Shown in pieces: positions 3,315-34,473 of a stretch of 64,000 nt of DNA. The position numbers were made by a program, and so were the translations under genes. This stretch comes from Brevundimonas terrae. GTDB lineage: Bacteria; Pseudomonadota; Alphaproteobacteria; Caulobacterales; Caulobacteraceae. The notes below the pieces were generated by a model. That model was given only the letters and a program-made list of their open reading frames with translations, was not told the origin of the DNA and ran no database searches. Every line of letters begins with the position of its first letter. Within the stretch, counting starts at the first letter, position 1. The stretch covers positions 62,001 to 126,000 of the forward strand of contig NZ_JAASQT010000002.1 in assembly GCF_011761985.1 (NCBI RefSeq). The letters are read 5' to 3'.

Positions 3315-3803
3315 ATGCAAGAAACAGTCATCCTCGATGAATTCGACCGCCGCCTGCTGGATCTGGTACGGCGCAACAACCTGACGCCCGCGCGGGTGCT
3401 GGCCGAAAAGGTGGGGCTGTCGGAATCGGCGGTGTCCCGCCGTCTGCGCCGTCTGCGCGATGAAAAAATCATCATTGCCGATGTGGCGGTGGTGGATCGC
3501 GGGCGGCTGGAAAAAGCCCTGACCATGCATGTTCTGGTCGAGATGGAGCGCGAAGGCACGGCCGTCATCGACGCCCTGATGCGCAAGCTGAAGGCGCGCC
3601 CCGAGGTGCACGGCATGTGGTACACGACCGGCCATGTGGATTTTATCCTCTATGTCGTGGTGCCGGATATGCAGGCCTATGACACCTTCACCCGCGACGC
3701 GCTGAACGACGATGCGCGGGTGCGTAACTTCACCACCCTGTTGACCATCCGCGAGGTCATGCCGTTTGATCCGTCCCAGCGGGTGATTTCGCGAGGGAGG
3801 TAG
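3315..3803 (+). CDS. Lrp/AsnC family transcriptional regulator
   Basis: A 162-residue regulator. The AsnC-type helix-turn-helix occupies about residues 10-55 (DEFDRRLLDLVRRN, then LAEKVGLSESAVSRRLRRLR), and the C-terminal RAM/AsnC ligand-binding and oligomerisation domain spans about 70-150. The ATG at 3315 gives the normal family N-terminus; the longer frame starts only at a TTG 39 bp upstream. It is divergent from the DMT exporter, a common arrangement in which the regulator senses the amino acid that the transporter exports. Its stop codon lies 5 bp before the next gene, so the two may be co-transcribed. Confidence 0.92.
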   Translation: MQETVILDEFDRRLLDLVRRNNLTPARVLAEKVGLSESAVSRRLRRLRDEKIIIADVAVVDRGRLEKALTMHVLVEMEREGTAVIDALMRKLKARPEVHGMWYTTGHVDFILYVVVPDMQAYDTFTRDALNDDARVRNFTTLLTIREVMPFDPSQRVISRGR

Positions 3804-5458: not shown

Positions 5459-6673
5459 ATGGGAAGTGCCGCTGTAACCAAATCCGCAGCCGACAGGGCC
5501 GCCGAAAACGACCGCGCAAGGCTGGTGCTGTTGCGCCGACTGGCTGACGTTGTCAGCCTGCCTGCCAGCCGTATCAATGCTTTCGAGCGTTCGGTGGTGG
5601 CGGACCTGATGGTCGATATGCTGCGTCAGGCCCCGCTGGAAGAGCGCCGCAGGATTGCCGCCCGTCTGGTGCCGCTGACGGATATTCCCGACAATATTTG
5701 CCGCCTTCTGTTACGCGACGACATTGTTGTGGCGCGTGAACTTCTGGATGAAGCGGCTTCGCTCAGCGACCATGATCTGATCAGTTGTGCCGCCTCGGCC
5801 AGTATAGACCACTGCAAACACATTGCCCGCAGGCGCGGTTTGACCCCTGCTGTGTGTCACGCGCTGATCGAGCGGGCCGATGCAGAGGTCACGCAACTGG
5901 TTCTGGCCAATAAGGATGCTTCCATCCCGACCACGGCGCTGGAAACGACTGTGGCGCAAAGCAGACAACACCCCGAACTGTGCGCGGTTATTCTGAAACG
6001 GCCCGAACTGCGCCCGTCCAGCGCCTATGTGATGTTCTGGTGGTGCAATCACGAAGAGCGCAGCATTATTCTGCGTCGCTTTGCTGTATCGCGCGAGGTG
6101 CTGCAAAGTACTGTGGCCGATCTGTTCGGTAAGGACGGCGGCGGGGATGACGCCTATGTGCGTAAGGCCCTGCAATTTATCGAGCGCCGCCAGCGTGATC
6201 GCGATGCCGCCCAGATATCGCACTATGGCGGGCTGGAAGGCGTAATCCAGCATGCCGCCGAAGCGGGCCTGACGCCCGATCTGGTGGCGGAAATCGGCCA
6301 GTTGGCAGGCGTTAAGCCACTGACGGCTGCCAAGATGCTGAGCGACGAGGGCGGTGAATCCATTGCCGTCATGTGCAAGGCCACAGGTCTGACCAAGCAA
6401 TATCTCGCCCTGTTGTGGAAGGCGATGCGCCGCCCGTTCGACGAAAAGGACGAGAATGGCGATGTGCGTTGGGAACGGGTGCAGGTCGTATATGAAATAC
6501 TGGCCGTAGATCGCGCCCAGACTGTATTACGCTACTGGAACTGGGCGTTGACCTCGGCCCTGACGCCGCAATTGATCCGTGCCATCCGCGAGGGCGAAGA
6601 ACATCTGGTCGATGCCTTCTCGGCGGCGGAACGCGCCGCCATGCTGGCCCTGTCCGAAGACTTTAAAAGCTGA
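5459..6673 (+). CDS. DUF2336 domain-containing protein
   Basis: A 404-residue, all-helical cytoplasmic protein of the DUF2336 family, common in Caulobacterales and other Alphaproteobacteria and of unknown function. The sequence shows repeating helical units (LPASRINAFERSVVADL, then LDEAASLSDHDLI, VCHALIERADAEV) like HEAT-type scaffolds, with the conserved tail LALSEDF. The start at 5459 is favoured by AGGGG at 5449-5453; an in-frame ATG at 5441 would add six residues. It lies directly upstream of mucR, and a second DUF2336 gene lies on mucR's other side, which suggests a functional or regulatory link. There are no transmembrane segments. Confidence 0.8.
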   Translation: MGSAAVTKSAADRAAENDRARLVLLRRLADVVSLPASRINAFERSVVADLMVDMLRQAPLEERRRIAARLVPLTDIPDNICRLLLRDDIVVARELLDEAASLSDHDLISCAASASIDHCKHIARRRGLTPAVCHALIERADAEVTQLVLANKDASIPTTALETTVAQSRQHPELCAVILKRPELRPSSAYVMFWWCNHEERSIILRRFAVSREVLQSTVADLFGKDGGGDDAYVRKALQFIERRQRDRDAAQISHYGGLEGVIQHAAEAGLTPDLVAEIGQLAGVKPLTAAKMLSDEGGESIAVMCKATGLTKQYLALLWKAMRRPFDEKDENGDVRWERVQVVYEILAVDRAQTVLRYWNWALTSALTPQLIRAIREGEEHLVDAFSAAERAAMLALSEDFKS

Positions 6674-7021
6674 GATCAGCCAGATAATACAGGTGTAATC
6701 TGAAATATGCCGATATTTCAGTATTTTGTGGCAGGGGGCGGTGTGCCGTTATTTTGCCTTATTTAGATGTGCGCGCATCTGTATTACTTATCACTGATCA
6801 CTGATCCTGTTTTTTAACGCCGCAACATTATGAATAAACCTTATTCAATGTGGGGTATTGTCTGTCGCGAACTCGATTGTATTAAATACAAGTAATACAG
6901 TCAGATGATTACGCTATTTTTCCTTGACAATCCTTCGATAAAGATCAGGATACCGCCCGATTTAGTAACATAAGAGGCTAGTTATATAGCCCTTTCTATT
7001 GGCTTCATTGGCGGGACAAAA
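6674..7021 (+). promoter_or_regulatory. AT-rich mucR upstream region with repeated TAATACAG element
   Basis: This 348-bp gap is clearly more AT-rich than its surroundings and has no convincing gene. TAATACAG occurs at 6685-6692 and 6893-6900, and its reverse complement CTGTATTA at 6779-6786. The last two extend to a perfect 11-bp inverted pair, CTGTATTACTT (6779-6789) and AAGTAATACAG (6890-6900). A further palindrome TGTATTAAATACA lies at 6878-6890. TTGACA at 6924-6929 is a good -35 box, although the -10 downstream is poor. MucR/Ros proteins are known to bind AT-rich, TA-containing sites and to repress their own genes, so these are plausible autoregulatory sites. Confidence 0.55.
6701..6720. 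repeat. Perfect palindrome downstream of the DUF2336 gene
   Basis: TGAAATAT-GCCG-ATATTTCA is a perfect 8-bp inverted repeat with a 4-nt centre, 28 bp after the DUF2336 stop codon. Without a T-run it is a better candidate for a protein-binding site or mRNA 3' hairpin than for an intrinsic terminator. Confidence 0.5.
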
Positions 7022-11216: not shown

Positions 11217-11537
11217 GGCTCGCAAAACCTATGACGAGAGAGGACAGAAGGGGGTCTGCCCCCTCTCGTTGCTGGAGGCATGCCGTGACGGATCGTTAGG
11301 GCTGGCGGTGGGCAATTACGCAATCAGTAGGCCTGTTGAGGGCAAGCATGCTGGGTGGGGGAGCGTAAAAATGGATGGCAACGGCGCCGCTCGGGGGGAG
11401 TAGGGCGCGATGCGATCCGGACCAGTTCTACGATTACCGGTACAGACTGACTTTAGCATAACAAAGATATATCAAGCCTTTGAAGTCGGCAAGTATCCGT
11501 TATGGACGCCTGTGGATAAGCAGGAACGGACACATGC

Positions 11538-13523: not shown

Positions 13524-14111
13524 ATGGAAATATCGACACGCCGTAGAATGCCCGAAGCGACCCGCACCGAAATACTGGACACCGCCATCGAGGTTCTGGC
13601 CGAGAAAGGTCCGCTGGGACTGACGCTGGATGCGGTGGTGGAGCGGGTGTCGTTCAGCAAGGGGGCCTTGCTGCACCACTTTCCGAACAAGACCGCCTTG
13701 CTGGAAGGGGTGATCGACAGTCTGGGCGAGAGCTTTATGGCCCAGATCGAGGCCTATACGGTGCAAGATCCGCAAGCCTATGGACGTTCGGCGCGGGCCT
13801 ATCTGAGGACGGTCATCGACGAGCCGGTGACGCAGCGCGATGTCAGTATCGGTCGGGCGGCGCTGGCGGCCTGTGCCATTGATCCGGCGCTGGCACAGCG
13901 CTGGAAGGCATGGATGAAAAAGGCCCGCTATGACGATCCCCGCGATGCGGCAGGGGCGGACGATGCGCTGATGATGCGTCTGCTGGCTGACGGACTGTGG
14001 ATGTCGGACCTGTTCGGCACCTATGAGATTTCACCCGAGCAACGCCGGGCGCTGGCATCGTTGCTGATGGCCGGAACCGCATTGCCCGAACTGATGGAAC
14101 AAAAAGCATGA
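13524..14111 (+). CDS. TetR/AcrR family transcriptional repressor
   Basis: A 195-residue regulator with a typical TetR helix-turn-helix (residues about 10-56: [20 protein letters not shown], then [17 protein letters not shown]) and a helical C-terminal ligand-binding domain. The ATG at 13524 is preceded by a palindrome suited to its own binding. The frame is also open far upstream, but that part is the antisense shadow of the ABC-F gene. Its stop overlaps the start of the SMR efflux gene by 4 bp (ATGA), so it very likely represses that pump and releases it when it binds a cationic or hydrophobic drug. Confidence 0.92.
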
Positions 14112-17400: not shown

Positions 17401-17650
17401 TTGTGCGCGTGTCGGGGGCGGGCAATCGCGGGAAAAACAAGGGATTGGCGCGCGGTGAAACCAATCGGCCCGCCTGTGGACGCTGGTGCTCTATGGTTTG
17501 GGTATGGCGGGAAATGGGGACAGCGGAAGCGAGCCGGTGCAGCAGTGGCGGGATCGGGTGTTCGTGCAGTTGCAGGCACTGGTGGACGAGGCCGTTCAGG
17601 TGGTCCCGGAGGGCTGACGAGCGCGGCTCATGAGAAAAGAGAGACCGTTA

Positions 17651-17689
17651 GGTGGCCCTGTGGGCCACCTTCTCCCATTGGGAGAAGGG
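17651..17689. repeat. REP-like palindrome, family A, copy 1
   Basis: GGTGGCCC/GGGCCACC and CCTTCTCCC/GGGAGAAGG form two adjacent hairpins. The same pair of motifs recurs at 22832-22882 and, inverted, at 34430-34473. Confidence 0.8.
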
Positions 17690-17729
17690 ATTGAGGGGGG
17701 GCGGTGGGGCGAAAGCAGAGGAGGTTGGG

Positions 17730-17951
17730 ATGAAGGGGGTTCCGGTGGCGTTGGTGGTGGCGCTGGTGGTGCAGACGATTGGGGGGCTGGTTTGGGCTGG
17801 CGGTGCGGCGGCGAGGATTTCGGCACTGGAGGGGAAGGTGGCGCAGCAGGCTTTGGTGGCGGAGCGGCTGGCGCGGCTGGAGGCGCAGGGCGAGGCGATG
17901 CGGGCGTCGCTGGAGCGGATCGAGCGTCAGCTGGAGGGCGGTAAGCGATGA
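17730..17951 (+). CDS. Small membrane/coiled-coil protein of the GTA-like cluster (gp3.5 position)
   Basis: A 73-residue protein with one N-terminal hydrophobic helix (VALVVALVVQTIGGLVW) followed by a charged helical tail rich in Ala, Leu, Glu and Arg (ERLARLEAQGEAMRASLER), likely a short coiled coil. GAGGAGG precedes the ATG at 17730. Its stop overlaps the prohead protease start (ATGA), as does the small gene between portal and protease in Rhodobacter-type GTA clusters. It is assigned by position and size; sequence alone does not name it. Confidence 0.55.
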   Translation: MKGVPVALVVALVVQTIGGLVWAGGAAARISALEGKVAQQALVAERLARLEAQGEAMRASLERIERQLEGGKR

Positions 17952-18349
17952 GGATTGCGGGCTATGCGTCTTTGTGGGGCGTGGCGGATCTGAACGGGGA
18001 TGTGGTGCATCAGGGCGCGTTTGCGGACAGCTTGATCAAGACCGGAGCCGAGGGCGTGCGGATGCTGTGGCAGCATGACGGGCGCGTGGTGGTCGGGCGC
18101 TGGGAGAGGCTGTTCGAGGACGAGCGCGGGCTGTTTGTCGAGGGCGTGATCGGGGACTGGTCGGCAGAGGCGCGCATGGCGCGGGCGGTGTGCGGATCGG
18201 GGGCGGTGGATGGTTTGTCGATCGGCTATCGCACGGCAAAGGCGCGTAAATGCGGGCGGTTAAGGGTGCTGAGCGCAGTGCAGTTGTGGGAGGTGTCGGT
18301 GGTGACGTTTCCGGCATTGACGGGTGCGCGGCTTAGGGTTTTGACTTGA
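17948..18349 (+). CDS. HK97-family prohead protease (GTA gp4-like)
   Basis: A 133-residue phage maturation protease that trims the N-terminal scaffold of the major capsid protein during head assembly. It opens with GYASLWGVADLNGDVV, characteristic of GTA/HK97 proteases. Candidate catalytic residues are His43 (LWQHDG), Ser91 (DGLSIGY) and Glu115 (LWEVSVVTFPA). The length equals that of short GTA-type proteases, and no frameshift is visible, so the gene looks intact. In GTAs the capsid gene follows directly; here about 3 kb of unrelated genes intervene. Confidence 0.85.
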   Translation: MRIAGYASLWGVADLNGDVVHQGAFADSLIKTGAEGVRMLWQHDGRVVVGRWERLFEDERGLFVEGVIGDWSAEARMARAVCGSGAVDGLSIGYRTAKARKCGRLRVLSAVQLWEVSVVTFPALTGARLRVLT

Positions 18350-18374
18350 TCCGGTGCGGAGGCAGGAGGTCGCG

Positions 18375-18662
18375 ATGAGCGCAAGCGGGATCAGTGCGGG
18401 GGTGGTGCATGATCTGCCGCCCGATCTGGAGGCGTTTATCGCTGCCGATGCCGAGGTGCGCGAGCGGTGGGAGGATATTACGCCTCTGGCCCGTAACGAG
18501 TGGATTTGCTGGGTGCAGTCGGTGAAGAAGGCCGAGACGCGCGCGCAGCATGTCGAGCGCGTGGGGGCTGATTTGAAGGCGGGTAAGCGCAGGCCGTGCT
18601 GCTGGCCCGGATGTCCGCATCGGGAGAAGACGGGTAGGGGCGAGAAGACGGGGCGGGCTTAG
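18375..18662 (+). CDS. YdeI/OmpD-associated (bacteriocin-protection-like) domain protein
   Basis: A 95-residue protein matching the C-terminal YdeI-family segment: DLPPDLEAFIAADAEVRERW, then PLARNEWICWVQSVKKAETR, and the tail GKRRPCCWPGCPHR. Full-length YdeI proteins are often longer, but stand-alone versions of this size occur in Alphaproteobacteria. Its biochemical role is unknown; the name bacteriocin-protection comes from family annotation. AGGAGGT before the ATG at 18375 supports this start. It sits 25 bp after the prohead protease, in the place where the capsid gene would be expected, so it was inserted there or the cluster was rearranged. Confidence 0.75.
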   Translation: MSASGISAGVVHDLPPDLEAFIAADAEVRERWEDITPLARNEWICWVQSVKKAETRAQHVERVGADLKAGKRRPCCWPGCPHREKTGRGEKTGRA

Positions 18663-18676
18663 CGGGCCGTTTGGTT

Positions 18677-19063
18677 TTAGCTGATCAGGGCGCGGAAGGC
18701 GTCCGAGAGGCGGGCGGACTGGCCGTTAATGGCGCGGACATAGGTCATGCGGATTTCGGTGAGCACGGTGGTGTCGCGGGTGATGGTGACGGTGAGTTCA
18801 AAGCTGGAGCCGCCGATACGGGTTGGCTGTACCGTGCAGGTGAGCAGATCGTCGTTAAGCGCCGGTGATTTGAAGCTGAGGCGGGCATCGACGACATAGA
18901 CCTGAAGCAGGTCTTCGATATTGGCATCCAGCACGCCGAGGTGGCGGTAATATTCGGTTCCGGCGACATCGGCATAGACGAGATAATGGGCGTTGAAGAC
19001 GACGCCCTGGGCATCGACCTCGCCCCAGCGGACGCGAATCTGGTGGGTGAAGGGTTGGGTCAT
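18677..19063 (-). CDS. Acyl-CoA thioesterase, 4-hydroxybenzoyl-CoA (YbgC-type) hotdog fold
   Basis: A 128-residue single-hotdog thioesterase hydrolysing an acyl-CoA in the cytoplasm. The active-site motif is RWGEVDAQGVVFNAHYLVY with the nucleophilic/base Asp17; the rest follows the hotdog strand pattern. Substrate specificity cannot be told from sequence. It is convergent with the YdeI-like gene (14-bp gap), and a REP-like palindrome lies upstream. It is one of the cellular genes that separate the GTA-like protease and capsid genes. Confidence 0.87.
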   Translation of the reverse strand: MTQPFTHQIRVRWGEVDAQGVVFNAHYLVYADVAGTEYYRHLGVLDANIEDLLQVYVVDARLSFKSPALNDDLLTCTVQPTRIGGSSFELTVTITRDTTVLTEIRMTYVRAINGQSARLSDAFRALIS

Positions 19064-19087
19064 GGTGTTTTACCCTTGATTACGGCG

Positions 19088-19126
19088 TTGTCGCGACACC
19101 TCCCCCGCGATGCAGGGGGGGAGGTG
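19088..19126. repeat. REP-like palindrome, family C, copy 1
   Basis: TTGTCGCGACACCTCCCCCG followed by CGATGCA and a G-rich complement (GGGGGGGAGGTG). The same arrangement, TTGTCGTG..CACCTCCC-CGCGATGCA-GGGGAGG, is at 22763-22796. It lies between the thioesterase start and the M20 peptidase stop. Confidence 0.65.
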
Positions 19127-19149
19127 TTACGGGGCCCGTAGAAGACGTT

Positions 19150-20541
19150 TTACTTGGAAGCGATCTGTTGGAGCAGGGTTTCCCAGTGGGTGATGCCGGG
19201 TGCGAGGTTGTCGAGGGGCAGGCGCTCGTTCAGGCCGTGGGAGAAGCTGTCTTCACTGCGCATAAAGACCGAGCCGACGCCGTAGGCAGGGATGCCGAGG
19301 GCGCGGAAATGCATGCTGTCGGTGGCACCGGCAGACATGGACGGGACGATGGCAAGGTCGGGGTAACGACTGTGAACCGCAGCGGTGACGGCGGCAACGA
19401 CATCTTCGCGTAGAGGGGAGGACGGGGCGGCGATGGTGCCGGTGTCGAGTTGTTCGATCTTTATGGTGGTATCGGCCACGATTTCCTGAAGTTGATCGCG
19501 GATTGCAGCTGTCGAGACGCCGGGAAGGATGCGGCAGTTGACGGTGGCCTGTGCCTGTTGGGGCAGGGCGTTGGCGGCGTGACCGCCCTTGATCATGGTG
19601 GCGGTGCAGGTGGTGCGGATGGTGCCGGTATAGTTGCCATTAGCCACGAGGGTGGCAATGGCGGTTTGATCCTGATCATTGGCGACGAGGGCGCGCATGG
19701 CGGCAGCGATTTCCGGCTGTGCGCGTTCGGCCGCGGCCGTGAAATAGCCGCGCGTGATTTCATCCAAGCTGACCGGGAAGGCGTAGTCGTTCAGGCGTTG
19801 TAGGCCGGCGGTCAGGCGGTAGATCGGGTTGCCCGCTGTGGGGCGCGAGGAGTGGCCGCCGGCATCGGTGACGGTGAGGGTGTAGTCGGCATAGGTCTTT
19901 TCCGAGCCTTGCAGGGAATAGACGGTAGGGTTGTGCTGGGTGTCGAGGGAGCCGCCGCCGCCGTCGGCATTGAGGACGAGTTCGACGTTACTGTGCTTTT
20001 GGGCGAGATGGCGGGTGGTGGCCATGCCGGTTTCTTCGTCGCCGGAGAAGGCGAGGATGATGGTGCGCTTCGGCTGCCAACCGGCCTGTTTCAGCTTGAT
20101 GATCGTGGCCATGACGATGGAAAGGCCCGCTTTGTTATCCACGGAGCCTCGGCCGAAAATGTAGCCGTTTTCGATGACGGGGGTGAACGGGTCACGTTCC
20201 CAGTCGGCAGGGTCGGCTTCGACCACATCCATATGGCCGATGATGGCAACGGGTTTCAGAGACGGGTCGCTGCCTTGCCATGTGGCGGTGAAGGCGGCGG
20301 TGTCACCGATGGGGTCGATCTGGATGGCCGAGGCGGGGAAGTCTGCGGCGACGAGCTGGTCCTTGAGGAAGTTGGCGTACTGAGGGGTTTGGTTGGGGCC
20401 GAACTCGCCCGTTTTGACGGTGCGGTAGGTGATGGCGCGAGACAGCATCTCGAGCGCGGCATCGGCCGACTGGGCGTGGGAGACGGCGGGCAGGGCCATG
20501 AGAATGGCGGCTGCGGCGGCGGTGGATTTCAGAAATGACAT
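19150..20541 (-). CDS. M20 family metallopeptidase, exported
   Basis: A 463-residue zinc peptidase/deacylase of the M20 (ArgE/DapE/CPG2, PM20D1-like) family, with a signal peptide (residues 1-23, ending AVSHA), so periplasmic. Metal and catalytic residues are visible: His103 and Asp105 in IGHMDVVEAD, bridging Asp135 in GRGSVDNKAG, Glu169/Glu170 in SGDEETG, Asp193 in NADGGGG, and a C-terminal His in FSHGLNERLP. The dimerisation lid domain (about 215-335) includes VTDAGGHSSRPTAGNP. The substrate is unknown (N-acyl amino acids or peptides). It lies on the strand opposite to the surrounding GTA-like genes. Confidence 0.9.
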   Translation of the reverse strand: MSFLKSTAAAAAILMALPAVSHAQSADAALEMLSRAITYRTVKTGEFGPNQTPQYANFLKDQLVAADFPASAIQIDPIGDTAAFTATWQGSDPSLKPVAIIGHMDVVEADPADWERDPFTPVIENGYIFGRGSVDNKAGLSIVMATIIKLKQAGWQPKRTIILAFSGDEETGMATTRHLAQKHSNVELVLNADGGGGSLDTQHNPTVYSLQGSEKTYADYTLTVTDAGGHSSRPTAGNPIYRLTAGLQRLNDYAFPVSLDEITRGYFTAAAERAQPEIAAAMRALVANDQDQTAIATLVANGNYTGTIRTTCTATMIKGGHAANALPQQAQATVNCRILPGVSTAAIRDQLQEIVADTTIKIEQLDTGTIAAPSSPLREDVVAAVTAAVHSRYPDLAIVPSMSAGATDSMHFRALGIPAYGVGSVFMRSEDSFSHGLNERLPLDNLAPGITHWETLLQQIASK

Positions 20542-20612
20542 GGATACCCCCTCAGGTAAGAACTGGGGGGACTATGGAACGCGGTTCTGTGTTTGTCGCG
20601 GGGGAAGTTGGC

Positions 20613-20849
20613 TTAACGACGAAGGGCCGGGAAGGCGTAGCGGCCGGTGCTAACTGCGTCGGCGGTGTAGATGTCGTAGAGGCGGCGGAAGGTGCTGCGG
20701 TAGGCCAATATGATTACAATGGGGGCGAGCGAAGGTAGCAGCCACAGGTTTTGAGCGTGCCATTGAGGGTTCATATTTAGCGAGAACACGTAGATGCCGA
20801 TTAGGGCAGGCAACGAAAGCCAATGGGCTTCACTCAGTACTCTGTTCAT
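20613..20849 (-). CDS. Small membrane protein, unknown
   Basis: A 78-residue protein with two predicted transmembrane helices (SLPALIGIYVFSLN and LWLLPSLAPIVIILAY) and a basic tail (RSTFRRLYDIY). No family was recognised. Its ATG overlaps the stop of the preceding membrane-protein gene by 4 bp, so the two form a coupled pair. Local base composition is visibly lower in GC than the flanking GTA-like genes, which could mean separate acquisition. Confidence 0.5.
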   Translation of the reverse strand: MNRVLSEAHWLSLPALIGIYVFSLNMNPQWHAQNLWLLPSLAPIVIILAYRSTFRRLYDIYTADAVSTGRYAFPALRR

Positions 20850-21271
20850 CCAGCGAGGGATTGGAAGCAGAGGTAAAGGCTTACCGAAAGCCGCGATGAG
20901 GCGCTGAGCCCACGGGCGAGCAGTTTCGATCTTAGGTAGGTCAGCTTTAGCGGCTGATATTCCGGATCAAGGGGGCCATAGTCACCATTCGCGACGGTTT
21001 GCAGTCGTGACTTTGCGATGAAGTTTGGGGCCGGCTTTGTTGTTGTTCGGCTGAGTTTCGAGCCGCTGGTCATGAGGCGCGGGAAAATCCAAGTTAGGAC
21101 AAGTATCCCGATAAAAACAGTGATCGGTCCCATAGCGATTTGGGCAATGCTGCCGACGAACTGACTAACCATTATAGCGAGGATGACCAGGCTTGTTACA
21201 GCCGGTTGCACCAACTCGCGACCCCAAGTGCTTTGGGTGGCGTCTAGTCGAGGTTTGGCGCGGTTCCACAT
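20846..21271 (-). CDS. Membrane protein, unknown
   Basis: A 141-residue protein with two adjacent hydrophobic helices (about residues 27-50, AVTSLVILAIMVSQFVG, and 52-68, IAMGPITVFIGILVLTW) and a longer cytoplasmic, basic C-terminal part. It is translationally coupled to the small membrane protein downstream and is divergent from the capsid gene, leaving only 44 bp for both promoters. No homologue was recognised. The pair could be a toxin-antitoxin or immunity-like cargo, but nothing in the sequence proves this. Confidence 0.5.
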   Translation of the reverse strand: MWNRAKPRLDATQSTWGRELVQPAVTSLVILAIMVSQFVGSIAQIAMGPITVFIGILVLTWIFPRLMTSGSKLSRTTTKPAPNFIAKSRLQTVANGDYGPLDPEYQPLKLTYLRSKLLARGLSASSRLSVSLYLCFQSLAG

Positions 21272-21315
21272 GGCGCTGACAGTATCCGCATAGTGCGGGT
21301 TTTCAAGGAGAGAGA

Positions 21316-22542
21316 ATGAAAGAGGTTAAGACCGTGTCGGGTTCGCCCGAGGCGCGCGAAGTCGTGCGCGAGATGATGGTGGCGTTCGAGGCGTTTAAGG
21401 GGGCCAATGACGAGCGTTTGATGGAGGTGGAGAAGAAAGCTGCGGCTGATGCTCTGCTGGAAGAGAAGGTGGCGCGGATTGATCAGGCGCTTACGGGTGC
21501 GCAGGCCAAGCTGGATCGGATGATGGCGCAGGTGCGTCGTCCGCAGATGGGTGGCGAGGCGGTTGAGGCGGCGTCGGCACCGGAGGCCAAGGCAGCGTTT
21601 GATGGCTATCTGAAGACGGGTTCGGTGGCCGGTCTGGAGGTGAAGGCGGGTCTGTCGAGTGGTGCGTCGTCGGGGGGTTATGTGGTGCCGCCGGAGACGG
21701 AACGTGCCATTGAGCGACGACTGATGGCGGTGTCGCCGATGCGCGAGATTGCCTCGGTACGCACGGTGGCCGGTGGTGTATTCCGTAAACCGGTTTCGAC
21801 GGCGGGTGTGGTTGCGGGCTGGGTGGCCGAGACGGCGGCGAGGCCCGAGACGGATCCGGCGACGCTGGCGCTGCTGGAGTTTCCGGCGGCGGATCTTTAC
21901 GCCAATCCGGCGGCGACGCAGGCGCTGTTGGATGATGCCATGGTGGACCTGGACGAGTGGCTGGCGGGCGAGGTCGAGGATGCCTTTGCCGCGCAGGAAA
22001 CGTCTGCGTTTGTCAGCGGCAATGGCGTGAACAAGCCCAAGGGCTTTTTGGCCTATGACACGGTGGCGGACAGTGCCCATGAGTGGGGCAAGATCGGCTA
22101 TGTGGCCAGTGGTGCGGCGGGCGATTTTGCGGCCAGTGATCCGGCGGACAAGCTGATTGACCTGATCTATGCGCCCAAGGCCCAGTATCGTGCCAGTGGC
22201 CGCTTTGTGATGAACCGCAAGACGGTGTCGGCGGTGCGCAAGTTCAAGGATGCGGACGGTCATTATGTCTGGCAGCTGGCGCAGCGACTGGGCGAGACGG
22301 CGAGCCTGATGGGCTATCCGGTGACGGAAATCGAGACGATGCCGGATGTGGCGGCGGGTTCGCTTTCTGTTGCGTTCGGTGATTTCCAGCGTGGCTATCT
22401 GATTGTGGATCGTGCGGGGGTGAGGGTGTTGCGCGATCCGTTCACCGCCAAGCCGTATGTGCTGTTCTATACGACCAAGCGTGTGGGGGGCGGTGTGCAG
22501 AACTTTGATGCGATCAAGGTGATGAAGATCGCCGCCAGCTAG
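21316..22542 (+). CDS. HK97-fold phage/GTA major capsid protein (gp5-like)
   Basis: A 408-residue major capsid protein. Residues about 1-100 are the charged, helical delta/scaffold region (EVVREMMVAFEAFKGANDER, then coiled coil), normally removed by the prohead protease. The HK97 core follows: SGGYVVPPETERAIERRL, then WVAETAARPETDP, LLDDAMVDLDEWL, SGNGVNKPKGFL, VMNRKTVSAVRKF and the closing YLIVDRAGVRVLRDPFTAKPY. The sequence is closest in style to GTA/alpha-prophage capsids. AAGGAGAG precedes the ATG. No frameshift is seen. The expected downstream connector and tail genes (gp6-gp11) are missing; a REP island and a DUF805 gene follow instead. Confidence 0.92.
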   Translation: MKEVKTVSGSPEAREVVREMMVAFEAFKGANDERLMEVEKKAAADALLEEKVARIDQALTGAQAKLDRMMAQVRRPQMGGEAVEAASAPEAKAAFDGYLKTGSVAGLEVKAGLSSGASSGGYVVPPETERAIERRLMAVSPMREIASVRTVAGGVFRKPVSTAGVVAGWVAETAARPETDPATLALLEFPAADLYANPAATQALLDDAMVDLDEWLAGEVEDAFAAQETSAFVSGNGVNKPKGFLAYDTVADSAHEWGKIGYVASGAAGDFAASDPADKLIDLIYAPKAQYRASGRFVMNRKTVSAVRKFKDADGHYVWQLAQRLGETASLMGYPVTEIETMPDVAAGSLSVAFGDFQRGYLIVDRAGVRVLRDPFTAKPYVLFYTTKRVGGGVQNFDAIKVMKIAAS

Positions 22543-22605
22543 GCGGGGGATGACGAGAGGGAGAGGGGGATGGGTTGAGGCATGAGAGGGATGTGGGGAG
22601 GGTGT

Positions 22606-22646
22606 CACCCCCATCCCCGACCCTTCCCCCGTCAAGGGGGAAGGGG
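22606..22646. repeat. Palindromic element CCCTTCCCCC/GGGGGAAGGG
   Basis: A 10-bp GC-rich stem with a short GTCAA centre, preceded by CACCCCCATCCCCGA. It is 80 bp after the capsid stop and might also act as a transcription roadblock for that gene. Confidence 0.6.
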
Positions 22647-22666
22647 GCAGTAAGTTGCCGAGGGTT

Positions 22667-22697
22667 GAGAAGGCGGAGCCTTCTGATCGCGGCTGAC
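22667..22697 (-). repeat. 31-bp repeat, copy 1 of 2
   Basis: Its reverse complement (GTCAGCCGCGATCAGAAGGC and on through TCCGCCTTCTC) matches 46297-46327 at 30 of 31 positions. Each copy contains the inner hairpin GAAGGC/GCCTTC. In both places it starts a run of REP-like palindromes. Confidence 0.8.
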
Positions 22698-22762
22698 TAA
22701 AGTGATGACAAGGGGCGGTCCGGTGGGCCGCTCTTTGTCGTTTTGGCCCCCTCCGTCACGAC

Positions 22763-22796
22763 TTTGTCGTGCCACCTCCCCGCGATGCAGGGGAGG
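22763..22796. repeat. REP-like palindrome, family C, copy 2
   Basis: TTTGTCGTGCCACCTCCCC, CGATGCA and GGGGAGG; matches 19088-19126 apart from the length of the C/G tract and a few bases. Confidence 0.65.
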
Positions 22797-22831
22797 AGTG
22801 GGGTGGGGATGGGTGCGAAAACTAAATGAAG

Positions 22832-22882
22832 AAACCCTCATCCGGCCCTGCGGGCCACCTTCTCCCAGCGGGAGAAGGGTTT
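22832..22882. repeat. REP-like palindrome, family A, copy 2
   Basis: AAACCCTCATCCGGCCCTGC, then GGGCCACC and CCTTCTCCC-AGC-GGGAGAAGG. It shares the two-hairpin core with 17651-17689 and the outer CCCTCATCCGGCCCTGCGGG part with the inverted copy at 34430-34473. Confidence 0.8.
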
Positions 22883-22890
22883 CGCGCGGT

Positions 22891-22931
22891 GCGCGCCGCT
22901 GGGTCCCCCGATCAAGTCGGGGGATGACGGA
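22891..22931. repeat. 41-bp REP-like element, family B, copy 1
   Basis: GCGCGCCGCTGGGTCCCCCG, ATCAAG, CGGGGGATGACGGA. The reverse complement of 46347-46387 has the same layout with compensating changes in the stem (CCCTCCG/CGGAGGG instead of CCCCCG/CGGGGG), as expected if the hairpin is what is conserved. Confidence 0.75.
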
Positions 22932-23019
22932 GGGAAGGGGGAAGCAGGCGCGTCGGGGTGAGCGGGCAAGAAAAAGGGCGTCCGGTGGGACGCCCTTTTG
23001 TGTTTGGTGATCGCGGGGA

Positions 23020-23736
23020 TCAGAGGCCTTTGGGGTTGGGGCCGTATTGGTTGGTGCCGGGTTGGCTGTCGGTGATGCCGATCCACAGCAGGAAGCCGAG
23101 GCTGGTGATGATGGCGATCAGGCTGCCGATGCTGATGGCACCAATGGCACCCATCATGGCTGCAGCGCTGGGTTCGCCGCCGGTGACGGCAGCCATCATG
23201 AAGGCACCGCCGCCGCCGATGAGCATGATGATGGCCGCGATGAGGCCACCGACATAGGGGACAAGGGTGAGCCAGCCGGTTTTGCCCATGTCGTGCAGAC
23301 GTTTGATGGTGATGCAGACGTTTGGATAGATCAGGGCCAGACCGATCAGGCCGCCGAGCAGCGGAATCCACGAGGTCAGGAGGCTGATGCCGAAGATGAT
23401 CAGGACGCTGATCCAGAAATGCTGGCGACGCATGCGGCCGGTATAGGACAGAAGGGCCGATTTGAAATCGTAGCCGTCGGTGCCCGGAAGCGAGTTGATG
23501 GCCGAGTTGGCGGCTGCGCCGAAGGAGGCAGCGGCGTCGGCGGCAGCACTGGCGAGGCCGAGAATGACGATCTGGGTCGCGGTGGAGCCATTGGGGACGA
23601 AATCGACATCGTGGCCGACATTGATGTCCGAACCGGTGTGGATGTCATGGCGGGCGAACAGGTAGTTGATACCGTCTTCGCCCTTGATGGTGCCGGTATT
23701 GGTCGTCGTGTCGTAGCTGGTGATCTGTCCGCGCAA
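23020..23736 (-). CDS. DUF805 membrane protein with an N-terminal cold-shock-like domain
   Basis: A 238-residue protein of two parts. Residues 1-60 (GQITSYDTTTNTGTIKGEDG, then INYLFARHDI) resemble the cold-shock/OB-fold pattern of strand 1 to strand 3 seen in CSD-like domains. Residues about 90-238 are a DUF805 (YhaH-like) module with RMRRQHFWISVLIIFGI, a signature CITIKRLHDMGKTGW loop, and several membrane helices, ending in the typical GTNQYGPNPKG tail. DUF805 proteins are inner-membrane proteins of unknown role. It lies on the opposite strand inside the GTA remnant region, so it entered or was left there by rearrangement. Confidence 0.82.
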   Translation of the reverse strand: MRGQITSYDTTTNTGTIKGEDGINYLFARHDIHTGSDINVGHDVDFVPNGSTATQIVILGLASAAADAAASFGAAANSAINSLPGTDGYDFKSALLSYTGRMRRQHFWISVLIIFGISLLTSWIPLLGGLIGLALIYPNVCITIKRLHDMGKTGWLTLVPYVGGLIAAIIMLIGGGGAFMMAAVTGGEPSAAAMMGAIGAISIGSLIAIITSLGFLLWIGITDSQPGTNQYGPNPKGL

Positions 23737-23822
23737 GGGGAACCCTCCGATTGAACCGGTAGCCGGTCGATTAAGGCGGGATCATGGCGCGATAAAAATC
23801 GTGCCGCAAGGGGGAGAGCGAA

Positions 23823-24230
23823 GTGTCTCAAATATTTGATGAAGTAGCGATTCCGGCACGGTTGGCCTTTGGTTCGACCGGCGGGGTGGAGCGTAAAACC
23901 GAGATTGTGGAACTGGCATCGGGCCATGAGCGGCGTTCGACGCCGTGGGCGATGGGGCGCAGGCGTTATCTGGTCGGGGCGGGGTTGCGGTCGCTGGACG
24001 ACATGGCGGTGCTGACGGCGTTTTCGCTGTGCAAGGCCTATGTAGCTGGCGAGGTGGGGATAGCGGGTTGGATGGTGCGGTTTTCGCATGGCCGCAGGAT
24101 GGGGATTATCAGGTGGGGCAAGTCGCGGGCGGGCGTGATTTCGATTGGTATTATACCAGTGCGGAAGATGAGGCGGCGCAGGTTGGCGGGTGGGGCCAAA
24201 GGGAGTGGCACCGGCAGGGGCGCGGTTTAG
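23823..24230 (+). pseudogene. Degenerate DUF2460 (GTA gp12-like) gene fragment
   Basis: The first ~65 residues from the GTG at 23823 match the start of DUF2460/TIGR02217 proteins of GTA and phage tails (FDEVAIPARLAFGSTGGVER, then ELASGHERRSTPWAMGRRRY and GAGLRSLDDMAVLTAF). Full-length members are about 200 residues and continue with a Trp/Phe-rich FRWRD-type core; here the frame passes straight from LTAF to SLCKAYVAGEVG and then becomes basic nonsense up to a stop at 24230. An internal deletion plus frameshift is the likely cause. The downstream gp13-gp14 genes are absent. Confidence 0.7.
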
Positions 24231-24585
24231 CGAGGCGCGTTTTGTCTGGCAGCGCAGGGGCTCTATGCCGTGGCGGCCCGCCCATTTCAGGAAGGTGGCG
24301 GGCGAGGATGGTCTTGGCTTGAGCTGGCAGGTCTGTGTGCGAACCGGCGGGGATGGTTGGGGCGAGGATGGGATCGAGCCTGATCCGAGGCGGTTCCGGT
24401 TGCGGGTGATGGCGGCAGGCGAGACTGTGCGTGAATGGCAGGTTCACGACACGCGGGCGCTGTATGAAAAAGCGCAGCAGGCGGTCGATTTTCCGCAAGG
24501 TATGGCAGCGGAAGTGACGCTGGCTGTGGCTCAGTGGGGCGATGGTTGGGGGTGGGGTGAGGAAGCCTTGTTACGCTTGAAATAG
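24172..24585 (+). pseudogene. C-terminal remnant of GTA host-specificity (gp15-like) protein
   Basis: From 24172 the +1 frame is open without a proper start and encodes WRVGPKG, then RGSMPWRPAHFRK, LSWQVCVRTGGDGW, then FRLRVMAAGETVREW and EVTLAVAQWGDGWGWGEEALL. This order (WRVGP, PWxPxHLR, LxWxRRTR-like, YRLRV..., VxQxxxxxGxG) is the closing part of the ~1300-residue GTA gp15/phage tail host-specificity protein. The N-terminal ~90% is missing; it starts within the broken gp12-like fragment in another frame. It is the right-hand end of the decayed GTA cluster. Confidence 0.65.
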
Positions 24586-24662: not shown

Positions 24663-25565
24663 GTGGCTGGTGATCCCTATAAGGAACTTGGCGTTTCAAA
24701 AGGCGCGAGTGCTGACGAGATCAAGAAGGCTTTTCGCAAGCTGGCCAAGGAACTGCACCCCGACAAGAATCCGGGGGACAAGGCGTCCGAAGAGCGTTTC
24801 AAGCGCATAACGGCGGCCTTTGACCTGCTGGGCGATGCCGAGAAGCGTGCCAAATACGACCGTGGCGAGATCGATGCCGACGGACGCGAGCAGTATCGCG
24901 GCTTTAGTGGCGGTGCAGGCGGCGGCGGTCGTTCGGGTGGTTTCTCGGGCTTTGGTGGCTCGGGCCAGCGGGGTGGTTTTGAAGATATCGACCTGTCGGA
25001 CCTGTTTGCCGGTTTCGGTGGCGGTGGTGCCAATCGCGGCTTTGGCGGTGGCAAGGGGCAGGATATCCGCGCCACGCTGGAGGTCAGCCTTGAAGAGGTG
25101 ATCTCGGGCACCACGCGCCGTATCCAGTTCTCGGACGGGCGCATGGTGGATGTGGCTATCCCCAAGGGCGCGTCGGACGGTCAGGTGGTGCGTCTGAAAG
25201 GTCAGGGTGCGCCGGGGCGCACGCAGGCCGGTGACGCCATGATCGAGCTTCGGATCGTGCCGCACGCGCTTTACCGCCGCGACGGGGCGGACCTGCATAT
25301 GGACCTGCCGGTTTCGGTGCCCGATGCGGTGCTGGGCGGCAAGGTGACGGTGCCGACGCCTGAGGGCAAGGTGATGATGAGCATCCCCAAGGGCTCGAAC
25401 TCGGGCAAGGTACTGCGTCTGAAAGGGCGCGGTGGCTATGCCGATGGCAAGCGCGGGGACCTGTTGGCCAAGCTGATGGTGACGCTGCCGGACGAAGAAG
25501 ACGAACTTCTGGTGCGCTTTGCCGAGGATTGGCGCAAAAATCGGCCCTACACGCCGGGCAAGTGA
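24663..25565 (+). CDS. J-domain protein (DnaJ/CbpA-like co-chaperone)
   Basis: A 300-residue Hsp40. The J domain is at residues 4-67 with the HPD tripeptide at 32-34, which stimulates DnaK ATPase. A Gly/Phe-rich linker (about 80-135) follows, then two C-terminal substrate-binding beta domains (about 140-290) without the Cys-rich zinc finger of DnaJ, so it is a class B/CbpA-type protein. The start is GTG at 24663. It is the first ordinary housekeeping gene after the GTA remnant and lies on the same strand as serC and purA. It acts in the cytoplasm in protein folding. Confidence 0.93.
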   Translation: MAGDPYKELGVSKGASADEIKKAFRKLAKELHPDKNPGDKASEERFKRITAAFDLLGDAEKRAKYDRGEIDADGREQYRGFSGGAGGGGRSGGFSGFGGSGQRGGFEDIDLSDLFAGFGGGGANRGFGGGKGQDIRATLEVSLEEVISGTTRRIQFSDGRMVDVAIPKGASDGQVVRLKGQGAPGRTQAGDAMIELRIVPHALYRRDGADLHMDLPVSVPDAVLGGKVTVPTPEGKVMMSIPKGSNSGKVLRLKGRGGYADGKRGDLLAKLMVTLPDEEDELLVRFAEDWRKNRPYTPGK

Positions 25566-34429: not shown

Positions 34430-34473
34430 CCTTCTCCCGAGGGGAGAAGGTGGCCCGCAGGGCCGGATGAGGG
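34430..34473. repeat. REP-like palindrome, family A, copy 3 (inverted)
   Basis: CCTTCTCCC-GA-GGGGAGAAGG followed by GGTGGCCC-GCA-GGGCCGGATG and AGGG. It is the reverse orientation of the copies at 17651 and 22832 and lies between the DUF559 gene and pgk. Confidence 0.8.

Follow-up and report, generated by a model that had tools for sequence, protein, structure and literature searches.

A GTA remnant in Brevundimonas, probably reduced recently by internal deletions

Introduction

The closest described systems to the locus considered here are the RcGTA-like gene transfer agent (GTA) clusters, such as those of Rhodobacter capsulatus and Caulobacter crescentus. GTA production is costly, and why GTAs are maintained is an open question. 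According to one account of Alphaproteobacteria, in which 14 of 17 genes are asked for a near-complete GTA set, the clusters have become pseudogenes or been lost altogether in multiple lineages, and cheater lineages have been suggested (PMC10883770). GTA decay in general has been described before and is thus not new as such. Here we analyze a stretch of 64,000 nucleotides (the window) from a Brevundimonas genome of 2.94 Mb. The assembly consists of 13 contigs, so that a missing gene could sit in a gap despite the completeness given as 99.97%.

Remnants of a GTA cluster

Between 17.5 and 24.6 kb, the window carries, in GTA order, a fragment in the gp1 position, gp3.5, gp4, gp5, about 68 codons of gp12 and two pieces of gp15, followed by dnaJ, all on the forward strand. 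Three of these genes (gp3.5, gp4 and gp5) are open, the others being stumps of gp1, gp12 and gp15. Terminase, portal, gp6–gp11, gp13 and gp14 are absent from the locus, which consequently falls short of the near-complete set of 14 out of 17 genes and does not have the terminase and portal of an RcGTA-like cluster. Nevertheless, the homologous gp3.5, gp4, gp5, gp12 and gp15 follow the RcGTA-like order, and the locus occupies the chromosomal place common to its relatives, flanked by YcgN/histidine kinase genes and by dnaJ (24663–25565), which throughout the genus tends to adjoin GTA clusters on their right-hand side.

The HK97-type major capsid protein gp5 (21316–22542, 408 aa) is intact. It matches Phage_capsid (PF05065, E = 1.6e−88), and its top match among solved structures is Rcc01687, the major capsid protein of RcGTA (6tb9, E = 6.4e−93). 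In a tree of GTA-locus capsids only, with no phage sequences, it groups with those of two loci denoted L031 (B. pishanensis) and L032. The gp4 prohead protease (17948–18349) is also complete, with 133 aa compared to 138 aa in B. pishanensis, to which it is 82% identical; it matches Peptidase_S78 (PF04586, E = 1.3e−24). The open frame of gp3.5 (17730–17951) is 72% identical to its counterpart in B. nasdae and 89% to that in B. pishanensis, and produced weak PHROGs matches, the best with E = 0.0077. The gp12 stump (23823–24026), an N-terminal fragment of a DUF2460 distal tail protein, covers positions 1–62 of the 205-position profile (PF09343, E = 4.8e−18) and aligns over 64 residues with RcGTA distal tail protein Rcc01695 (E = 3.6e−21). 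The C-terminal piece of gp15 (24187–24585; codons ~1097–1227, about 131 codons) matches the end of the tail profile phrog_4271 (E = 1.2e−10) and aligns to the terminal part of an RcGTA protein of 1304 residues (chain 6tba_8A, E = 2e−4). Neither gp3.5 nor the gp15 pieces retrieved a Pfam family. These five pieces were correctly recognized and placed in the preliminary description, as was their GTA identity, borne out by comparison with fuller clusters in relatives.

Two further remnants had been missed. An internal gp15 fragment of 49 codons (24038–24184; codons ~485–533) is 49% identical to gp15 of B. nasdae, and its DNA is 78% identical to that of L031 over 101 bp. At 17504–17617 lie the N-terminal 37 codons, then a stop, of a gene similar to the ORF that immediately precedes gp2 in both B. 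nasdae and B. pishanensis. Searching with part of the B. pishanensis ORF gave no PHROG match, so the name gp1 rests on position.

Internal deletions and close relatives

B. pishanensis L031 is the nearest relative found to possess the whole set, gp2–gp15, at the same chromosomal place, with a histidine kinase before the cluster and dnaJ after it, as in the window. The two loci also share the gp3.5–gp4–gp5 order, a thioesterase in the gp4–gp5 slot and DUF805 before gp12. Breakpoints were mapped at the DNA level. Four segments are absent from the window compared to B. pishanensis: A (the rest of gp1, gp2 and gp3), B (gp6–gp11), C1 (from the end of gp12 into gp15) and C2 (the middle of gp15). Deletion A, which also removed the first codons of gp3.5, is bordered by blastn matches to L031 at 3554–3787 and 6639–6862; about 2.85 kb of L031 sequence is swapped for a scar of about 110 bp (17618–17729) with a palindromic repeat at 17668–17688. 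For deletion B, the flanking matches are to L032 at 11302–11409 and 13809–13876, and the scar (about 22804–22970) lies in a spacer with several REP-like repeats (22543–23000). The gp12 DNA match to L031 stops at 24026, followed by the scar at about 24027–24083; the last scar is at 24184. Loss by internal deletion, as originally proposed, is supported by this comparison with fuller clusters at the same place. The remaining genes are collinear with those of intact clusters, which confirms the proposed GTA order and speaks against the description of the cluster as rearranged. In short, this is a dead GTA, though not a rearranged one.

Exactly three copies of the 15-mer GGGCCACCTTCTCCC exist genome-wide, and the scars of A and B account for two, which is suggestive of repeat-driven deletion. 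The palindrome has no copy in L031 or L032, even with up to three mismatches allowed. The window's own genome yielded no Y1 (REP-type) transposases, while the control set had a match in Caulobacter vibrioides. The repeats at the scars may have caused the deletions or may have been inserted later.

In phylogenetic trees, the whole cluster of L031 and the decayed cluster of L032 are found together, with the window outside (supports 97/76 and 100/91). L032 retains gp6–gp11 and gp15 from about codon 1069–1080, whereas the window lacks gp6–gp11 and, apart from the internal fragment, gp15 up to codon ~1097. Conversely, gp3.5, the start of gp4 (of which L032 lacks the first 21 codons), gp12 codons ~31–68 and gp15 codons 485–533 are kept in the window and absent from L032. 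As each keeps parts that the other has lost, neither was derived from the other by deletion.

Cellular genes within the cluster

Cellular genes had been thought to fill the breaks. However, the scars hold short repeats or nothing, and no genes. Of the 47 Brevundimonas-type loci where both gp11 and gp12 were seen, 39 have DUF805 between the two, and in 48 of 52 loci more than 500 bp separate gp4 from gp5. On these grounds most of the cellular genes predate the decay, sitting in long-standing slots of clusters that are otherwise intact. The DUF805 gene of the window (PF05656; 23020–23736, reverse strand) lies in its old slot. Between gp4 and gp5 there are an OmdA/YdeI-type small protein (18375–18662, forward; PF13376, E = 2.3e−16), a 4HBT thioesterase (18677–19063, reverse), an M20 peptidase (19150–20541, reverse) and two small ORFs with no assigned function (20613–21271, reverse). 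L031 and L032 both carry the thioesterase in the same slot, where L032 also has the M20 peptidase; unlike the window, L031 has no OmdA or M20 match there. The OmdA gene had no match in the other 80 named loci, nor in L111–L129. The small ORFs show distant similarity to ORFs in the gp4–gp5 slot of L031 and L044, and the one that was scanned (20849–21271) had no Pfam match. On the right-hand side, dnaJ lies no more than 400 bp from the end of gp15 in 37 of 39 loci.

Selection and alternative explanations

Usable omega values came from the capsid and the gp12 stump, the gp3.5 and gp15 pieces being uninformative. For the capsid, two analyses put the window-branch omega at 0.055 and 0.066, compared to 0.107 and 0.101 for the whole-cluster lineage; in terms of 2 × lnL, a value of 0.12 fares worse by 6.0 and a value of 1 by 40.5. 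The gp12 stump has an omega of 0.071, as low as that of the capsid. Since neither shows relaxed selection so far, the collapse is likely to be recent when set against the divergence from B. pishanensis.

Low capsid omega may also be read differently. An HK97-type protease and capsid protein are able to form empty shells, and the pair could have been kept under selection as a shell that has no portal and serves the cell, the other genes having been lost. Both genes are fully open, and the capsid omega of 0.055 does not exceed that of the whole-cluster lineage. However, the equally low omega of the gp12 stump fits recent loss, the test on gp4 by itself does not reject omega = 1 (3.4), and the related decayed L032 has lost the start of its gp4. 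Nor was the capsid found to be selectively kept in other decayed loci, as would be expected of a domesticated HK97 shell: among 20 lesioned loci (counting the window's), seven have a gp5 close to full length in a single frame (at least 400 of 412), and in 11 gp4 reaches at least 120 of 138. We therefore regard a retained shell as unlikely; because the gp12 stump too shows no relaxed selection, a domesticated capsid is a less likely reading than recent loss.

Another possibility is a GTA that is split yet functional, with the missing genes encoded elsewhere. In its favour, in some Brevundimonas with otherwise complete clusters, gp2 is not in place and a related terminase is present at another site. 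However, no terminase, relocated or otherwise, was found in the window's own genome, although 122 of 131 genomes of the genus have a match somewhere. There were likewise no matches for gp13 (positive control G024) or for gp9, the latter searched in this genome only and without a control; gp15 was found only as its tail. Portal gave a single distant match at another place (28%, E = 2.5e−5). Among the lost or truncated genes, the genome-wide searches covered terminase, portal, gp9, gp13 and gp15. A complete GTA elsewhere had been named in the preliminary description as grounds for doubting its reading, and no second set was found in the searches made of this genome. Overall, a split GTA seems very improbable. 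Even less credible is an unrelated degraded prophage, the other such ground. The pieces are indeed phage-type structural genes, but locus, order and flanks are those of whole GTA clusters, and the closest relatives are not phages: the top phage capsid is 55% identical and none of 419 matched phage records reaches 60%, compared to 71–88% for full-length GTA capsids of the genus.

Taken together, we consider it highly probable (roughly 0.93) that the locus is a recently wrecked GTA cluster, the leftover of a virus-like DNA-transfer machine reduced by internal deletions. The interpretation put forward initially thus stands as to identity, order and internal deletion, but not as to rearrangement or cellular genes filling the breaks. 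In the scenario we favour, deletion A would have taken away the rest of gp1, terminase and portal, deletion B gp6–gp11, and C1 and C2 together most of gp12, gp13, gp14 and most of gp15. Judging from known gene roles, DNA could not be packaged without terminase and portal, and particles lacking connectors, tail and hub could not deliver it. Translation of the intact protease and capsid may continue, but the two proteins are most likely jobless and next in line for loss.

Recurrent GTA loss in Brevundimonas

This kind of loss is seen repeatedly in the genus: the analysis covered another 19 lesioned Brevundimonas loci, L032 and 18 further ones with damage of the same kind. Their junctions show overlaps of a few to 16 bases between blastn pieces, and inspection by eye revealed no shared motif. 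In gp15 the right-hand breakpoints are concentrated at codons 1048–1107 (9 of 16 used). A protected dnaJ promoter within the end of gp15 was considered as the cause, but is not supported by synonymous diversity, which in 29 full-length genes is not lower at the gp15 3′ end, rather higher, than elsewhere.

Because one close relative has the cluster whole and another has a cluster that decayed separately, the window locus makes a clean natural case of loss. With the 19 other lesioned loci (that of the L032 genome included) it forms a series with readable deletion ends, which allows non-producing strains to be predicted.

Comparison with known systems

Like the RcGTA-like clusters of R. capsulatus and, as far as described in PMC9632790, C. 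crescentus, the locus has homologous capsid, protease, distal tail and hub/tail proteins in the same order, and RcGTA is the top solved match for its capsid, gp12 piece and gp15 end. Unlike them, it is without terminase, portal, gp6–gp11, gp13 and gp14, has only stumps of gp12 and gp15, and, judging by gene content, would not be expected to package or deliver DNA. With the pseudogenised clusters of Alphaproteobacteria, in the form reported in PMC10883770, it shares an inactivated GTA in a lineage whose relatives retain theirs; it differs from the cases presented there in that deletion endpoints are mapped and lesions are traced at many loci of one genus.

A dead cluster and its relatives

The locus is a real, dead gene transfer agent (GTA) cluster. 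The window (G000:C2:62001−126000) belongs to a 2.94-Mb genome in 13 contigs, with completeness given as 99.97%. Pfam and PHROG scans of the window named a prohead protease, an HK97 capsid and a DUF2460 fragment, and the last piece matched the end of a phage tail profile of 1309 positions; the Pfam scan of window proteins assigned no family to gp3.5 or the gp15 piece. Compared with solved structures, three of the pieces (capsid, DUF2460 and the last one) matched the RcGTA particle, which bears out these GTA pieces of the preliminary description. As for an unrelated prophage, the capsid matched 419 records of a phage collection, all below 60% identity (best 55%), and its closest relatives are Brevundimonas capsids.

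Own-genome searches for terminase, portal, capsid, gp9, gp13 and gp15 revealed no second GTA set. Terminase and gp13 were not found in these searches, with genome G024 as positive control for gp13, nor was gp9, in a search without a positive control. Portal gave one distant match at another place (28%, E-value = 2.5e−5), capsid is present in one copy, and gp15 is represented by the tail only.

Using genes of B. nasdae (L044) and B. pishanensis (L031) as queries, we surveyed 56 Brevundimonas-type named loci, 32 of which matched all 15 core genes. The remaining 24 include nine lacking gp2 only, many that are short contigs, and the related decayed locus L032. The order in clusters is YcgN, often a histidine kinase, gp2, gp3, gp3.5, gp4, a slot, gp5, gp6−gp11, DUF805 (− strand), gp12−gp15 and dnaJ, and the window remnants are collinear with it. 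The gp4−gp5 distance exceeds 500 bp in 48/52 loci; of the 47 loci with both gp11 and gp12, 39 have DUF805 between them; and in 37/39 the dnaJ gene comes next, less than 400 bp beyond the end of gp15. L032 has the thioesterase and the M20 peptidase as well, and L031 the thioesterase; the OmdA gene had no match in the other 80 named loci. Since DUF805, the thioesterase and the M20 peptidase occur in relatives' clusters, they are older residents, and the proposal that cellular genes fill the breaks is not supported. Two of the 56 loci, titled Pseudanabaena biceps (L060) and Porphyrobacter sp. (L074), have Brevundimonas-like GTA clusters; these records are probably contaminating or misbinned contigs. 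L044 (3973−6221) and several other clusters close to B. vesicularis carry two extra genes between gp2 and gp3, presumably SGNH-hydrolase-like and acyltransferase-like, judging from their sequence.

Deletions and separate decays

Breakpoints were mapped by blastn of the window against L031 and L032. For deletion A, window 17368−17601 corresponds to L031 3554−3787 and the match resumes from 17729 at L031 6639; therefore, about 2.85 kb were lost (the rest of gp1, gp2 and gp3). For deletion B, window 22709−22803 corresponds to L032 11302−11409 and 22971−23040 to 13809−13876, so that about 2.4 kb were lost (gp6−gp11). At deletion C1 the gp12 match stops at 24026 (L031 14953) and the next match is in gp15 (L031 18014−18114), which, by comparison with relatives, restarts after deletion C2 near codon 1097. 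The 15-mer GGGCCACCTTCTCCC has three exact copies in the genome, at 17662 and 22852, in the scars of A and B, and at 34442−34456 (− strand); allowing up to two mismatches gives 13 genomic matches vs 12 for the reversed control. These perfect copies of a palindrome-bearing repeat core span less than 17 kb.

L032 lacks gp2, gp3, gp3.5 and the first 21 codons of gp4, as well as the stretch from gp12 codon ~30 through gp15 codon ~1069−1080, and still has gp6−gp11. Because the window and L032 each retain sequence absent from the other, deletion cannot have turned either arrangement into the other. In DnaJ and capsid trees L031 and L032 pair together, with the window outside the pair (support 97/76, below the tool's star, and 100/91, starred, respectively). 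These are two separate decays within one clade.

Across 131 genomes of the genus, own included, terminase and portal each matched in 122, gp15 in 126 and capsid in 115 (E-value threshold 0.001), counts that include a number of partial matches or matches off the GTA locus. We picked 20 loci, own included, for lesions visible in this survey. The other 19, one from the genome of L032, have deletions or splits in all except genome G028, where most of gp15 is displaced. Near full length in one frame was retained by gp5 (at least 400/412) in 7/20 loci and by gp4 (at least 120/138) in 11/20. In G028, gp15 codons 1−89 remain at the locus (L127), and codons 89−747 and 1095−1227 are found on the other strand at a distance of ~1.5 Mb (G028:C1:2080680−2083055); a breakpoint of this rearrangement falls within gp15.

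Right-hand gp15 breakpoints, taken as tblastn starts, fall within codons 1048−1107 of 1228 in nine of the 16 loci used, a set without displaced G028 (which would give 1095) and without G005, G007, G035 and G127, whose tails are on short or cut contigs. None of 20000 uniform simulations placed nine ends in any 60-codon span, 9/20000 did so with 13 ends limited to the last 400 codons, and 5/20000 were as bunched after two related loci were dropped (leaving 14, of which seven end in the span). Caveats are that related loci are not independent and that the bunching had been noticed before the test. In coordinates of the reference used, DNA comparison sets five ends at codons ~1047, 1068, 1068, 1080 and 1117. 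A hidden element as the cause is unsupported by synonymous diversity, which gave no sign of such an element or of synonymous constraint at the site. Bunched ends are listed for L111−L116, L121−L123, L032 and the window (24187).

Selection and terminases

In a purpose-written branch codon model, the capsid had an omega of 0.055 on the window branch, compared with 0.107 (L031) and 0.093 (L032); with three taxa the respective values were 0.066, 0.101 and 0.099. The gp12 stump had 0.071 on the window branch, 0.3 being disfavoured by 5.1 in 2 × lnL, and gp4 had 0.078, for which omega 1 is not rejected (3.4). None of the pieces with signal looks relaxed, which a recent collapse of the cluster would explain. 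At 1.3 neutral changes per codon the window's capsid branch is long, which makes this a coarse clock. There is an outside chance that the capsid has been kept as a shell.

Eight fetched regions carry gp2-related large terminases away from the cluster: L131 (8965−10413, − strand), L132 (8915−10414, +), L134 (8478−10274, +), L133 and L135−L138. Besides the terminase itself, the only matches of GTA queries there were a 28-residue piece of terminase in L134 and a weak kinase match in L136. In the three regions with ORFs listed the neighbours look chromosomal, and we take them to be guanylate kinase-like in L131 and also Cas-like in L132. An ORF adjoining the L132 terminase matches phrog_9243, of unknown function, which counts against a terminase standing alone. 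A tree without phage rows groups these terminases (100/98) with GTA terminases from Brevundimonas and Asticcacaulis. The loci lacking only gp2 are L036, L045, L053, L062, L072, L075, L078, L079 and L080, and three of their genomes (G032, G057, G047) are among those of the eight regions. This co-occurrence suggests that some species use a terminase acting in trans; both forms occur together in other genomes of the genus.

We found no description of this locus in the accessible portions of literature on GTA, Brevundimonas, capsid and terminase, including PMC9836097, PMC13236601, PMC9632790 and PMC11841831, and no mention of GTA in those of PMC12700997. RcGTA-like clusters occur in 78% of Caulobacterales OTUs, according to PMC6821227. 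The loss of the cluster here is an ordinary outcome of an already known process, well resolved by relatives.
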